Of a DNA stretch of 64,000 nucleotides, positions 40,121 to 45,449 are shown in pieces; position 1 is the first letter of the stretch, and every line of letters starts with the position of its first letter. Origin of the DNA: Halosolutus halophilus (lineage in GTDB: Archaea > Halobacteriota > Halobacteria > Halobacteriales > Natrialbaceae); contig NZ_CP094974.1 of the NCBI RefSeq assembly GCF_022869805.1, positions 3,348,001 to 3,412,000 on the forward strand, read 5' to 3'. The position numbers and the translations under genes are program-made. The notes under the pieces are model-generated. The model did not search any database and was not told where the DNA came from. It worked only from the letters and a program-made list of their open reading frames with translations.

Positions 40121-40933
40121 CTACGGATCAGTGTTCGACGCCTCTTCTTCCTCTACATACAGGCTTCGACGAAGGAGAAGCGGCATCAGTGAGTCTTTCC
40201 CCATGATTTCAGTTTCCGGGTCGTCCGCGTCGTTCCGGTACCGCCGAACCCGGTAGGAATCGAGTTCGTTCCGGTTTTCGGTCACGCACTCGAGTACTTC
40301 GAGGACGTCACCAGTTACGTCGTCACGATAGGTTCGACCGATTTCGATCCCGATGACGGGGACGTCGGACGGCCAGTCCCAGTTGAAGGTGCGGACGTAC
40401 TGGCCGAACTGCCAGACGAGATGATCTAGATCGGCGTCGTCGGAAACCTCGATGGCCAGTTGTTCGAGCTTTCGATCCCAGTAATCGATCACGCAAGCTT
40501 TGAGATCGTCCTGTAACGTCTCCTCGACCAGCCGTTTTTCGATCGGATAGCCGATTTCGATGCCGACGATCGCGTGATGGTCGAGGTGCGTGAGACAGCG
40601 CTGGCATTCCATTTCGTAGACGGGAATCCGGATCGGGTTTTCGACGGAGAGATGCGCCATCTCCTTGCCACAGTTGGGACACCAGAGGAACACGACGCCG
40701 TTATCGACGGCGGTCAGTTCGTCGAACACGGTCAAATCGTCGAAGGCCTTCTCCTCGGGCGTTGATTCGGACTCGATCGATTCGTCACTCGGTGCGGTGG
40801 CGTGTGCGAACTGCGCTAACTCGTGGTCTTTCAGCAGCGACTTGATGACCGAGTCGTGTGACGAGTGAGACTCCGCGTCCTGAATCTCTTCTAACTGCTC
40901 TTTGGTCCAGTCCCGTATTCTGATCGTGGCCAT
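40121..40933 (-). CDS. Ribbon-helix-helix and zinc-ribbon protein, unknown function
   Basis: A 270-aa protein from MATIRIRDWTKEQL. Residues 1-45 look like an RHH DNA-binding unit (strand ATIRIRD, then two helices QLEEIQDAE and HDSVIKSLLKDH). Residues 85-130 form a zinc ribbon (LWCPNCGKEM ... ECQRCLTHLDHH). The C-terminal 120 residues are mixed alpha/beta with WDRKLEQLAIEV and NWDWPSDVPVIGIEIG. Its own promoter carries a TATACG-CTC-CGTATA palindrome, suggesting autoregulation. It may regulate the neighbouring S17e/rdfA module; this is inference. Confidence 0.7.
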   Translation of the reverse strand: MATIRIRDWTKEQLEEIQDAESHSSHDSVIKSLLKDHELAQFAHATAPSDESIESESTPEEKAFDDLTVFDELTAVDNGVVFLWCPNCGKEMAHLSVENPIRIPVYEMECQRCLTHLDHHAIVGIEIGYPIEKRLVEETLQDDLKACVIDYWDRKLEQLAIEVSDDADLDHLVWQFGQYVRTFNWDWPSDVPVIGIEIGRTYRDDVTGDVLEVLECVTENRNELDSYRVRRYRNDADDPETEIMGKDSLMPLLLRRSLYVEEEEASNTDP

Positions 40934-41056: not shown

Positions 41057-41245
41057 TCACTGGACGTTACCAGTGCGCTTTCGTGTGACGTACCCGGCGA
41101 TCCGATTTCGGACCCGTTTGGATTCGACGTCAGTTAGTTTCTCGACCTGATCCTTGTTCTCCTCGAAGTCGGTCGAGAACCCGTCGGGATACCGTTCGAG
41201 AAGGGTATCACCGACACTGATGATGTTCTCCGAATCGGCTGTCAT
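41057..41245 (-). CDS. S17e-like ribosomal protein paralogue (copy 1)
   Basis: A 62-aa protein from [20 protein letters not shown]. From residue 13 it matches the archaeal 30S protein S17e: [20 protein letters not shown], then a [20 protein letters not shown] segment. The N-terminal dozen residues, normally basic (MAIKPAYVKKTG-like), are acidic here. Ribosomal S17e is normally single-copy and would be encoded elsewhere, so this is an extra, possibly non-ribosomal copy. A TATA-like element (GTTATTGTG) is 26-34 bp upstream. Confidence 0.85.
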
Positions 41246-41895: not shown

Positions 41896-42177
41896 GAATT
41901 AAGTTCTGACTCGCGATTCGACCGGCACGGTGCTCCGAATACCGCACTCGAACGCCACCGCCAGGGGATTTGCTCTAGATGTGCGAGGATCTCGGCGAAC
42001 TCTCCGATCGCGGCGCTGGCCACCATACGCTCTTGTTACCTATTGTCATACGACGTCGTGGTGGTACCAACACTACGCTCCGTTTCTCGATCGAACGTCG
42101 GCCTGATAGGTGTCCGAGAGCGCGATACAGCCCCCTTCTCGGGAGTCGTAGAGCCAACTCGAGACGGACTCGGGGCG

Positions 42178-42360
42178 TCAACTGGACCGTTTTTCCCGGG
42201 TAATGTATCCGGCGATACGGTTTCGGAGTCGATTCGAACTCACGTAGGTCATCGTCCGGACGACATCCCTGTTCGCGCTGAACTCCGTCGAAAACGCGTC
42301 CGGATACTGCTTGAGAAGGCGGTTTCCGATGGATATTACGTCGTTCGGATCGGACGTCAT
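42178..42360 (-). CDS. S17e-like ribosomal protein paralogue (copy 2)
   Basis: A 60-aa protein from MTSDPNDVISIGNRLLKQYP. Like copy 1 it follows the S17e pattern (LLKQYPDAFSTEFSANRDVV, then SSNRLRNRIAGYITREK) with a short acidic N-terminus. The two copies share the Ile-Ser-x-Gly start and the RNRIAGY core but differ at about half of other positions, so the duplication is not recent. A TATA-like element (TTTTATTC) is about 30 bp upstream. It is 207 bp downstream of the SMC-like gene. Confidence 0.85.
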   Translation of the reverse strand: MTSDPNDVISIGNRLLKQYPDAFSTEFSANRDVVRTMTYVSSNRLRNRIAGYITREKRSS

Positions 42361-42567: not shown

Positions 42568-44361
42568 CTACTGGTCGACGTCGATCGCTTCACGACTCGC
42601 CACCGACCACGTCGTCGGGTCGATAGTCCGACCCTCGGAGGTCGTGTGTTCCGGATAGGTGGTAAACACCAGATACTCCGTTCGGTCGTCCAGGTACTCG
42701 ACGAGCGTTTGCAGGTTTTCGTCCGCCAGACTCCCGACGCCGTCGACGAGCATGATCGGCACGGCCTCGTCGACGTCGAACGACTCGTACCCCGCGAGCG
42801 CGGCGATGAACCCGATCAGTTCGAGTTCGCCTTCGCTGAGCGCCTCGAGGCTCGCTTCGCGTCCGTCTCGAGCGACCACGAGATCGAAATCACCGGTCAG
42901 GTGAGCCGACTCGAATCCGGTCTCGAACCGTTCGCTAATGTCCTGAATCGATTCGCTGAACTCGTCGCGCGCCTGCTGTTTGATCTCTCGTTTGCGGTTG
43001 CGGAGATCCTCCATCTCCCGTTGAACCTCCTCTCGTTTGCCTTCCAGCAGCTCGATCTGGTCCGCACGAGATTCGAGTTCGTCGAGTTCGGTACGCGCGT
43101 CTTTCAATTCCGCTTCCCGATACTTGATCTCGCTCTCTACGTCCGTAATCTCTCCGACGGTCTCGTCGACCGTCTCGCCGAGCGCCTCGACGCGTTCGTC
43201 CGCGCGTTCGAAGCGATCACGGGCCTCCTCGAGGCTCTGTTTTCGATCGGCGAGTTTCTCTTCGAGATCTTCGATCTCCGTCTCGAGTTCCCGTTTCCGT
43301 CGCCGAGCCTGCGCGCGTTCTTCCCGTCGCGCCTCGAGTTCCTCGACCCGATCACGATGGGTTTCGAGTTGGGCTCGCTTCTCGGTGATCTTCTCCCCGA
43401 GCGCGTCGAGTCGATTCTCGAGATCCGTTCTGGACACCTCCGAATCGCAGGTCCAGCAGACGACCGAGTCGCCGGTAAGTTCCCGGTCGACGGTGGTAAT
43501 GAGATCGAGATGGTCCTCCTCGAGAACCATCTCGTTGGCCGAGTAGACGTTCTGTAACACCTCCAGGGCCCGATTCACCTGCTGACGTTTCTCGCATGCG
43601 GCTTCGAGTTCGGACTCGACGGCGGCGTCCTCGTCGACCTCGACGTCCTCGAGTTCCGAACGGCGGTCCTCGAGGCGGCTTTCGACGCGCGCGATAGTCT
43701 GTGTCAGGCGTTCGAGTTGGCTCTTCGCCTGACTGCGATCCGCTTGCGCTTGACTCAGTTCACCTTGCACGGAGTCGGCCTGATCCTCGGTGCCGGGGGG
43801 CGGCGACAGATCTTCGCGTCGATCGCGGAGGTCTTCGACTTCGCTTTCGAGTTGCGTAACGCGCTCCTGGAGCGCAGGGAGACGTTTGCGCGCCTCCTTT
43901 GCCTGTGCCAGTTCGGAATCGATCTGTTCGCGCTCGTTTTTGAGGTCTGCGATCTGTACGTCGATGTTCTGGAAGTCGAGCGGCCGTAGTAACGCGTCTT
44001 CGAGGTTCTCCCCCTCACGAACGGCCCGACGGATCTCGTTTTGCTCGCCGAGACAGGCGAACAACGAGGTGCGAGCGATGTCGTATTCGGACTCGAGATA
44101 GGGGGACCCCTCGACGGACACGACGCCGTTCGCACGACTGAGTTCGACGGCAATCTCCTCCTCGGGCGTCTCCAGGTGCACGCTCCCGCGGTCTCGCCCT
44201 TCGGTGAGCGTTGCCGCCGTTCCGAGGCCGGTTTTGATCGCTTCGATGAAACTCGACTTCCCCTGCCAGTTCGATCCCTTGACCGCGTTCAAGCCCGGTT
44301 CGAGTCGTGCACTCCCCTCGTAAATACCGGCGATGTTCTCGATATCGATTTCCCAGGTCAT
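42568..44361 (-). CDS. Archaea-specific SMC-related protein (Sph-like ATPase)
   Basis: A 597-aa SMC/Rad50-like ATPase. Walker A GSNWQGKS (residues 29-36), long coiled coils (about 135-295 and 310-470), a CWTC motif at 302-305 at the coil apex that matches a Rad50-type zinc hook, the ABC signature LSEGE (508-512), and Walker B PIMLVDG (535-541) with Gly where Glu is usual. It is downstream of rdfA with a 4-bp overlap (ATGA). Sph proteins are haloarchaeal SMC relatives; the neighbouring rdfA suggests a role in cell shape rather than chromosome segregation, but this is inferred. Confidence 0.88.
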   Translation of the reverse strand: MTWEIDIENIAGIYEGSARLEPGLNAVKGSNWQGKSSFIEAIKTGLGTAATLTEGRDRGSVHLETPEEEIAVELSRANGVVSVEGSPYLESEYDIARTSLFACLGEQNEIRRAVREGENLEDALLRPLDFQNIDVQIADLKNEREQIDSELAQAKEARKRLPALQERVTQLESEVEDLRDRREDLSPPPGTEDQADSVQGELSQAQADRSQAKSQLERLTQTIARVESRLEDRRSELEDVEVDEDAAVESELEAACEKRQQVNRALEVLQNVYSANEMVLEEDHLDLITTVDRELTGDSVVCWTCDSEVSRTDLENRLDALGEKITEKRAQLETHRDRVEELEARREERAQARRRKRELETEIEDLEEKLADRKQSLEEARDRFERADERVEALGETVDETVGEITDVESEIKYREAELKDARTELDELESRADQIELLEGKREEVQREMEDLRNRKREIKQQARDEFSESIQDISERFETGFESAHLTGDFDLVVARDGREASLEALSEGELELIGFIAALAGYESFDVDEAVPIMLVDGVGSLADENLQTLVEYLDDRTEYLVFTTYPEHTTSEGRTIDPTTWSVASREAIDVDQ

Positions 44362-45008
44362 GAGTGTGTACGCGTGCTTGCAGTCGTATCGCTGTGCTGG
44401 TCACAGACGTATCCGCGTTCGAGCGCCACCGCGAGTGGCACCCGCGTGGGGCACTCGTCGCATCGCAGGTGAATCTGCACTTCGACGGTGGACATCGTCG
44501 TTCCGTCGAGTTCTCCTTTATTTGCGAGCGAAGTGAGCGCTTCGTCGACGTTCTCGATGAGGACATCTCGTGCGACGTCGATGCTGTTTTGCTCCCAGTC
44601 CGTGCGAGCACTCGACTGCTCTTTGGACCCGTCGAGACACTCGTTCAGGTGAGTTCGCATCGTCCCCCAGGAGACCATATCGTCGAGCAACTGCTCGCCG
44701 TCGATCCCCGCCGCCGAGAGGCGCTCGATCGTTTCTTCGCGGACCAGTTCGTCGCCGGCAGTCAGCGCCTCGTAGTCGGCGTCGATCTGTGCGTCGAGTG
44801 CCCCCCGTCCGTGCTCGTCGTAGACGCGCTTGAGGAGTCGCTTGTTGAACCACTCGGTCAGCGTCCGATACCCGCTCTCGGAGTGCCCGCTGGCCCCCGT
44901 CCACCGCGCGAGAAGTCCATCGTCGAGCGATTCGTGGCGAGGATCGGCCGTCTCGAGGCCGTACTGATCGATCGTTGCGTCGACCTTGCAACCTGGATCA
45001 GGGGACAT
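44358..45008 (-). CDS. rdfA: Rod-determining factor RdfA
   Basis: A 216-aa protein of the RdfA family, in Haloferax volcanii required for rod-shaped cells. It begins MSPDPGCKVDATIDQYGLET, has an N-terminal helical region with LARWTGASGHSESGYRTLTEWFNKRLL, and ends in a zinc-ribbon-like HLRCDECPTRVPLAVALERG with YVCDQH. The adjacency to an SMC-like gene matches the known rdfA neighbourhood. The 4-bp overlap with the downstream gene indicates one transcript. The promoter is the repeat-rich region upstream. Confidence 0.85.
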   Translation of the reverse strand: MSPDPGCKVDATIDQYGLETADPRHESLDDGLLARWTGASGHSESGYRTLTEWFNKRLLKRVYDEHGRGALDAQIDADYEALTAGDELVREETIERLSAAGIDGEQLLDDMVSWGTMRTHLNECLDGSKEQSSARTDWEQNSIDVARDVLIENVDEALTSLANKGELDGTTMSTVEVQIHLRCDECPTRVPLAVALERGYVCDQHSDTTASTRTHS

Positions 45009-45449
45009 CTACCGGAAGTACCTTCCGCGGTTTAATAAGCCTGACTATGCGTGTACGGTTCGTTGGCGGGCGGTAACCGCGCTTTCCGGGGCTCACGGCG
45101 GCGTTCGTGGCCCCGGTGACCGATCGACGGCGCTCCCGTGACGAATCGCTCGATCGAGTCCCGTTACCGTCCGAATTCACACCCTAAGGGTGTATACTAG
45201 ATCGGCCGTTTCTAACTGGAATGCCACTCCTTCGACGCATTGAATATACACCCTAAGGCCGTATACTCGTGGTGCGGAGGTGGATCGGGAACGGTGACGG
45301 GTCGCTGAATCCCGGCGTCGGTCCGAGCGGCCCTCCTCGATCCCCACCTCTCGAGTCCGTCGAGAGCTGTATACGCGCCGTTCACGCGCGATAGGCGATC
45401 CCGTCCTCCGTCCGGAGAGTGGATTCGAGCGCAAACGGAGAGGGGGCGT
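45009..45449. other. rdfA upstream region
   Basis: About 440 bp without a gene, holding the rdfA promoter. It includes two 20-bp repeats (45179 and 45248) and a GTATACGCGC at 45369. The right-hand end is the 3' side of the amidohydrolase gene. Confidence 0.5.
45179..45267. repeat. Pair of 20-bp direct repeats with a palindromic core
   Basis: ACACCCTAAGGGTGTATACT (45179-45198) and ACACCCTAAGGCCGTATACT (45248-45267) are identical at 18 of 20 positions and spaced 69 bp apart. In the first, ACACCCTAAGGGTGT is a perfect 15-bp palindrome. They sit 170-260 bp upstream of rdfA, a plausible operator pair. Confidence 0.6.

Follow-up and report, generated by a model that had tools for sequence, protein, structure and literature searches.

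SMC and Rad50 proteins are ATP-driven machines. Among their relatives are the archaea-specific SMC-related proteins (ASRPs), which include the Sph proteins of Haloarchaea, and here we examine one of these and its neighbour RdfA, encoded by an overlapping gene pair in a 64,000-nucleotide stretch of the Halosolutus halophilus genome (RefSeq assembly GCF_022869805.1, contig NZ_CP094974.1, positions 3,348,001 to 3,412,000 of the forward strand; hereafter the window). In Haloferax volcanii, all four Sph proteins (sph1 to sph4) are needed for intermolecular gene conversion, and deletion of any of the four genes sharply lowers survival in the gene-conversion assay (PMC11276520). The sph1 deletion mutant has a normal shape, the sph3 deletion mutant forms disks, and the sph2 deletion mutant forms rods (PMC11276520). 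Deletion of rdfA, like that of sph3, yields only disks, the need of rods for RdfA having been shown with HVO_2174 (PMC10869688). Changes of shape are tied to Sph3 and Sph2. The literature is in conflict on one of them, as loss of Sph3 gives rods in PMC13286277 and PMC10570808 and disks in PMC10869688 and PMC11276520. When Halobacterium salinarum Sph1 is overproduced in H. volcanii, the cells become rods (as cited in PMC10869688).

The adjacency of RdfA and Sph genes has already been reported, in 42 of 54 (PMC10869688), and no consensus neighbour of ASRPs was found in a further study (PMC9389158). The H. volcanii pair RdfA-Sph3 (HVO_2174-HVO_2175) resembles the pair in the window in that the RdfA partner adjoins the SMC-like gene, and it is needed for rods (PMC10869688). 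It differs in that Sph3 belongs to the other published branch, Sph2-4 (PMC11276520). The Sulfolobus coalescin ClsN is likewise an ASRP family member with a zinc hook (PMC9389158), and differs in that it acts in chromosome compartments (PMC9764264). The two genes of the window and their junction are as follows:

44358..45008, minus strand: rdfA, encoding an RdfA-family partner protein of 216 aa (Pfam PF21811)
42568..44361, minus strand: ASRP gene of the Sph1 clade, encoding 597 aa (NCBIfam NF045487, AlphaFold model, tree)
44358..44361, minus strand: ATGA overlap of the rdfA stop and the ASRP start (from the sequence; a spacing of -4 or +2 recurs in relatives)

An earlier note on this DNA had described an rdfA and an SMC-like open reading frame joined by a 4-bp overlap. 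The sequence confirms both frames and the overlap, in which ATGA is common to the end of rdfA (...CTCATGA) and the start of the ASRP gene (ATGACC). The 597-aa protein scores 461 bits against the ASRP profile NF045487 (cut-off 300, NCBIfam), and falls below the cut-offs of the Rad50 profiles NF041035 (38 bits, cut-off 1000) and NF002572 (48.8 bits, cut-off 1087) and of the curated SMC profile TIGR02168 (46.2 bits versus 567). The 216-aa protein scores 146 bits against Pfam RdfA PF21811 (gathering score 27). The host genome (5.06 Mb, one contig) encodes three ASRPs that exceed the cut-off, paired with three RdfA proteins. The pair in the window belongs to the known RdfA-Sph module. The ASRP carries four motifs, compared here with the 36-member clade to which it belongs:

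44254..44277, minus strand: Walker A GSNWQGKS (residues 29-36), its Gly and Lys kept in 36/36 clade members
43447..43458, minus strand: zinc hook CWTC (residues 302-305), CxxC in 36/36 clade members
42826..42840, minus strand: ABC signature LSEGE (residues 508-512), a sequence motif
42739..42756, minus strand: Walker B IMLVDG (residues 536-541), with Gly541 at the position of the Rad50/SMC catalytic Glu

The AlphaFold model of the protein (mean pLDDT 85.9) has a Rad50-type head (PDB 3qku, Z 21.5, rmsd 3.8, 308 aligned residues), and a sequence search of the PDB gave two weak Rad50 matches. The CWTC that the earlier note had placed in the middle of a coiled coil is indeed flanked by long predicted helices (residues 133-281 and 311-478). 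Its reading of VDG in place of the Walker B D-E is equally correct: in the model, strand 536-539 leads into D540-G541, at the position where the Rad50/SMC fold has D-E, and the Rad50 (L005) and SMC (L004) of the same genome, used as controls, have D-E in the aligned columns. Across 52 aligned ASRPs, D540 is invariant. The H-loop position is Tyr in the window ASRP, and His in Rad50. The protein thus resembles Rad50 in its head fold and zinc hook, but lacks the Walker B Glu and the H-loop His, and its neighbour is rdfA rather than mre11. Gly541 is not a sequencing slip, because two bases of its codon, GGC, would have to change to give Glu and relatives have the same Gly; a private oddity of this genome is ruled out as well, the Gly being common to close relatives.

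We then compared the catalytic motifs of 164 distinct ASRPs, comprising 36 from the window clade, 118 other haloarchaeal and 10 non-haloarchaeal sequences (10 duplicate ASRPs, L003 and the RdfA-centred stretches L011-L043 were left out). Glu does not follow the Walker B Asp in 153 of the 154 haloarchaeal proteins. Within the window clade, the Glu position holds G in 26, R in 5, S in 3, D in 1 and E in 1, and the H-loop position is Y in 34, F in 1 and H in 1, while the ATP-binding motifs are complete throughout (Walker A Gly-Lys, Walker B Asp and signature, each 36/36). The other haloarchaeal ASRPs have mostly S at the Glu position (S 112, A 5, T 1); all 118 have lost the Walker A Gly, and in 108 the Lys is replaced by Arg. 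As 79 of these 118 came from a pattern scan that included NATNRTS[FL]L and so favoured Walker A Arg, the remaining 39 were also counted by themselves: the Glu position is S in 35, A in 3 and T in 1, and the Lys position is R in 31 and K in 8. The ten non-haloarchaeal ASRPs all keep the Walker A Lys, and have E in 7, D in 1 and N in 2 at the Glu position. The sole haloarchaeal ASRP with D-E is L057 (Natrinema pellirubrum plasmid type), and it lies inside the window clade.

The earlier note had called this Walker B atypical, which it is not within Haloarchaea, where the Glu-less state is the family rule. Conservation of the Gly itself, which that note had suggested checking, holds for 26 of the 36 clade members and does not extend to the other haloarchaeal ASRPs, which mostly have Ser. 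Homologues with the normal Glu, named there as evidence that would count against its reading, exist outside Haloarchaea (7/10) and once inside (L057), and are absent from the other 153 of 154 haloarchaeal sequences. A scenario in which Glu is normal in the haloarchaeal family and was lost in the window clade only is ruled out by its presence in 1/154, and the contrast in Glu loss holds only against non-haloarchaeal ASRPs. From the counts at the Glu, Walker A and H-loop positions, the ASRP family therefore seems, on sequence grounds, to have lost ATP hydrolysis in Haloarchaea, and the window clade is the part of it that still looks able to bind ATP. ASRPs have been stated to carry Walker A and B motifs (PMC9389158). 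Loss of the Glu is not mentioned in the covered parts of PMC9389158, PMC10869688 or PMC11276520 (the word Walker is absent from that of the last), and a literature search for Walker B Glu loss in haloarchaeal Sph proteins returned no such statement, the coverage leaving out most subscription articles, the original Sph publications among them. As far as the literature covered goes, the clade-wide loss of the catalytic motif is a new point.

A protein search of 125 genomes of the family Natrialbaceae returned about 26 close full-length sequences (38-100% identity), followed by a gap to about 30%. Membership of the window clade was first assigned from the LSEGE signature, and phylogeny bore it out: in a tree of head columns with the motif columns left out, the window ASRP falls inside a clade of 36 members (SH-aLRT 98). 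This clade tree covered 88 of 165 rows by a quick method, with long branches flagged by the program, and the other haloarchaeal ASRPs did not form one clade in it. The window clade includes H. salinarum Sph1 (L121), represented by the row L093, which is identical to L121 over the last 550 residues. H. salinarum Sph1 (Hp71) shares with the window ASRP the family and clade, the zinc hook, an intact Walker A, LSEGE and a Walker B D-G, and the rdfA gene adjoins its gene in the plasmid record. The two proteins are about 36% identical, and the H. salinarum genes are separated by an intergenic gap and have no such palindrome, in contrast to the 4-bp overlap and twin palindromes of the window pair. 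Four other Haloferax genomes (12 loci of 13 ASRP matches) have 11 loci of the other type (D-S) and one of the window type (D-R); a search for a ddfA neighbour did not single out the Sph3 orthologue among them.

RdfA is found beside the ASRP far beyond the window. It adjoins the ASRP in 35 of 36 window-clade loci, 32 times upstream on the same strand and 3 times divergently, and in 101 of 118 other haloarchaeal loci (58 upstream, 20 downstream, 6 divergent, 17 convergent). Loci with no RdfA in the examined stretch number 1/36, 17/118 and 7/10 for the three groups, counts that may include contig-end cuts. Since co-directional pairs in both orders, divergent pairs and convergent pairs all occur, it is unlikely that rdfA and the ASRP gene stay together only through one inherited operon. 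Distances among RdfA proteins follow those among ASRPs (Mantel r 0.87, 70 pairs, 0/999 permutations as high), both within the window clade (r 0.92) and within the rest (r 0.73), and the RdfA proteins paired with window-clade ASRPs group on a single branch (support 99). The adjacency, its four arrangements and the Mantel correlation together uphold the link to RdfA that the earlier note had proposed. Overall, 167 of 194 haloarchaeal genomes encode RdfA, frequently more than once.

Relatives of RdfA also stand beside ASRPs in 3 of the 10 non-haloarchaeal loci, which come from other archaea of the same phylum, and all three of these ASRPs have the Walker B Glu. The three score 35.7, 26.4 and 22.0 bits against Pfam (cut-off 27, one of three over it), and 120-143 bits against a profile that includes them. 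This suggests that the pairing with RdfA is older than the Haloarchaea, a new point as far as the literature covered goes, and the data point to RdfA as a dedicated partner of the clamp considered below. Six of the other seven non-haloarchaeal loci (L080, L082, L084, L085, L086, L088) have a gene for an AAA-type ATPase nearby instead, with Pfam AAA confirmed for the five scanned, and a small protein of about 130-145 aa is often encoded between the ASRP and this gene.

The RdfA model has a mean pLDDT of 88.4. Foldseek against the PDB gave no match at E <= 0.001, the best VIA-align Z was 4.3, and a PDB sequence search with RdfA returned nothing useful. Across 53 RdfA sequences, residues C183, C186 and C202 are conserved to at least 90%, and the segment that holds them may bind zinc:

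44394..44462, minus strand: C-terminal CxxC...C..H zinc-ribbon-like segment of RdfA (residues 183-205), with conserved Cys

Residues around 104-124 of RdfA have the look of a helix-turn-helix, by eye from the helices of the model.

We consider it an even chance that the window ASRP is a zinc-hook clamp that binds ATP but hydrolyses it poorly or not at all, and that RdfA is its dedicated partner. Two ASRP chains would probably be joined at the zinc hook. The head, which keeps Walker A, the Walker B Asp and the signature, would bind ATP and engage a second head, and with the catalytic Glu gone and Tyr in place of the H-loop His, hydrolysis would be absent or very slow. ATP binding would close the heads, which would then stay closed, so that the protein may act as an ATP-closed clamp or tether on DNA rather than a cycling motor. 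RdfA, the other product of the operon-like pair, would form a complex with it and probably loads, opens or anchors the clamp. The part of the earlier note holding that the protein is not a motor is therefore plausible, because the catalytic Glu is missing in 153/154 haloarchaeal ASRPs. A broader proposal, which we put forward tentatively and with less than even confidence, is that hydrolysis was lost at the root of all haloarchaeal Sph proteins, which became natural 'locked' SMC-like clamps or pseudo-ATPases run by RdfA as an obligate partner. The Sph1 clade would still close on ATP, and the others, without the Walker A Gly and mostly without the Lys, may have left the ATP cycle; the RdfA partnership would predate Haloarchaea and have been kept through the loss.

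Several points weigh against the clamp. L057 has D-E inside the window clade, and the Glu position varies among G, R, S, D and E, so that relaxed constraint fits better than tuning for a function. Catalysis could still come from one acidic residue that has shifted in space, and biochemistry on these proteins was not found in the literature covered. Adjacency of RdfA and ASRP genes does not show a complex. The motifs and clade placement of H. volcanii Sph1 (HVO_A0180) are extrapolated from H. salinarum Sph1 and from the clade members of other Haloferax.

It is unlikely, in our view, that the ASRP is instead a normal, slow ATPase that cycles like Rad50 or SMC, with catalysis taken over by a different residue or by the partner. 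The intact Walker A, Walker B Asp and signature of all 36 clade members would fit such an enzyme, as would the member with Glu (L057) and another with Asp (L098), but the Glu is otherwise absent from haloarchaeal ASRPs and its position is variable. The H-loop His is also replaced in 35/36 clade members, and a by-eye check of the alignment found no conserved acidic substitute adjoining the Glu position.

That the protein serves cell shape together with RdfA, in a structural (cytoskeleton-like) or signalling capacity, is slightly less likely still. This reading draws on the disk-only phenotype of rdfA and sph3 deletions in H. volcanii (PMC10869688) and on the rods that H. volcanii forms when the clade member H. 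salinarum Sph1 is overproduced (as cited in PMC10869688), yet the H. volcanii sph1 mutant keeps the wild-type shape and shows the strong gene-conversion defect common to all four Sph proteins (PMC11276520). The earlier note had suggested that the role could be structural or signalling rather than repair; the normal shape and gene-conversion defect of the sph1 mutant speak against this, and the effect of overproduced Sph1 leaves room for an influence on shape. Judged by analogy with these relatives, the evidence favours a DNA role over a shape role for the Sph1 clade, because sph1 deletion causes a gene-conversion defect with normal shape. The best-supported cellular role of the clade would be DNA-related (intermolecular gene conversion), with shape effects when overproduced.

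Upstream of rdfA are two palindromes and a putative promoter:

45179..45193, no strand assigned: palindrome 1, ACACCCTAAGGGTGT
45248..45262, no strand assigned: palindrome 2, ACACCCTAAGGCCGT, with 2 mismatches
45030..45051, minus strand: likely core promoter region of rdfA, from by-eye conservation upstream of rdfA in L044-L049; the promoter role is presumed

The palindromes are the only two sites in the host genome at <=2 mismatches of the 17-base form, and five close relatives have exactly two sites each at <=1 mismatch, in the same place. In the neighbouring clade, both sites resemble TTAACAGACTWAGTCTGTTAA, and a single site resembling ACACACTAAGTGTGT is present in Haloarcula-type loci; the core CTWAG is constant, and the arms differ on both sides between clades. 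In a blind search for paired palindromes in 138 rdfA upstream regions, nine clade loci scored 11-15, higher than any of the 600 Markov controls (maximum 10). A palindrome search gave 29 hits in 16 loci, of which 2 were dropped as chance and one duplicate was removed before covariation tests, and 16 hits in 122 other loci. The arms were paired at 90.9% versus 78.8%, and the covariation score was 0.307 versus 0.127, both above all 500 shuffles; pairs with changes on both sides numbered 3, not above shuffles (3.3). The known CsmR motif TATCA(N4)TGATA (PMC13286277) has no likeness to the palindromes. As far as the literature covered goes, these locus-specific palindromes are a new point.

A module for megaplasmid maintenance or partition, with RdfA and the ASRP clamp acting on the twin palindromes as a centromere-like site, is improbable. 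The Sph1 clade is mostly on megaplasmids: 52 plasmid records match the window ASRP at 1e-20, with named megaplasmid relatives in Natrinema, Haloterrigena, Haladaptatus, Haloarcula, Haloferax, Halobacterium and others, and the palindromes are confined to the locus in six genomes and co-vary between clades. However, many clade members have no palindrome, the host locus lies on the single 5.06-Mb contig, and two neighbouring-clade plasmids with the second palindrome form have one more good site about 190 bp before a 5'-deoxyadenosine deaminase gene. Because of that extra site, which weakens the centromere reading, the palindromes are more likely an operator shared with catabolic neighbours. The neighbourhood, which contains amidohydrolases, threonine synthase, inositol monophosphatase and D-aminoacylase, is common to Natrinema, Natronococcus and Haloterrigena plasmids and in part to Haloarcula plasmids.

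A candidate binder of the palindromes is the protein encoded at 40121-40933 (minus strand), which has a ribbon-helix-helix-like N-terminus (by eye) followed by zinc-ribbon-like cysteines and no Pfam match over the cut-off; in plasmids of Natrinema, Haladaptatus and Haloarcula it is again encoded downstream of the pair. Two short ribosomal protein S17e-like proteins are encoded downstream of the ASRP gene (42178-42360 and 41057-41245, minus strand). Such genes recur in the plasmid neighbourhood near larger putative DNA-binding proteins, and the copies in L119 and L122 match Pfam Ribosomal_S17e at 37-39 bits. Near 42026 (minus strand), a 48-aa open reading frame begins like a 325-aa HTH_50-like protein of a related plasmid (L119:10320-11297), and in the window this gene looks disrupted or truncated.

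Kinship with Lamassu (LmuB) or comparable SMC-like defence proteins, which would make the pair an anti-phage system, is highly improbable: PADLOC, run on the two proteins of the pair, gave weak matches to LmuB (best 61.9 bits, one model, no cut-off given) and Lamassu chains are among the Foldseek matches, but the ASRP profile is by far the best (461 bits), RdfA has no PADLOC match and is widespread and often multicopy in haloarchaeal genomes, and the H. volcanii relatives show shape and gene-conversion phenotypes (PMC10869688, PMC11276520).

The original observation is correct, and the protein belongs to a known family; the points worth keeping are the clade-wide loss of the catalytic residue, the older partnership with RdfA and the locus-specific palindromes. 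The absence of the catalytic residue as a family rule suggests that the protein acts not as a motor but as a clamp, holding on to ATP and DNA. If this is true, a large archaeal branch, with four copies in H. volcanii, would be a natural test of an SMC-like clamp without hydrolysis, and this almost entirely Glu-less branch is needed for gene conversion and cell shape. It also bears on the purpose of RdfA, a shape factor without a fold match in Foldseek against the PDB, by pointing to a dedicated clamp partner. The clamp claim is directly testable in H. volcanii.

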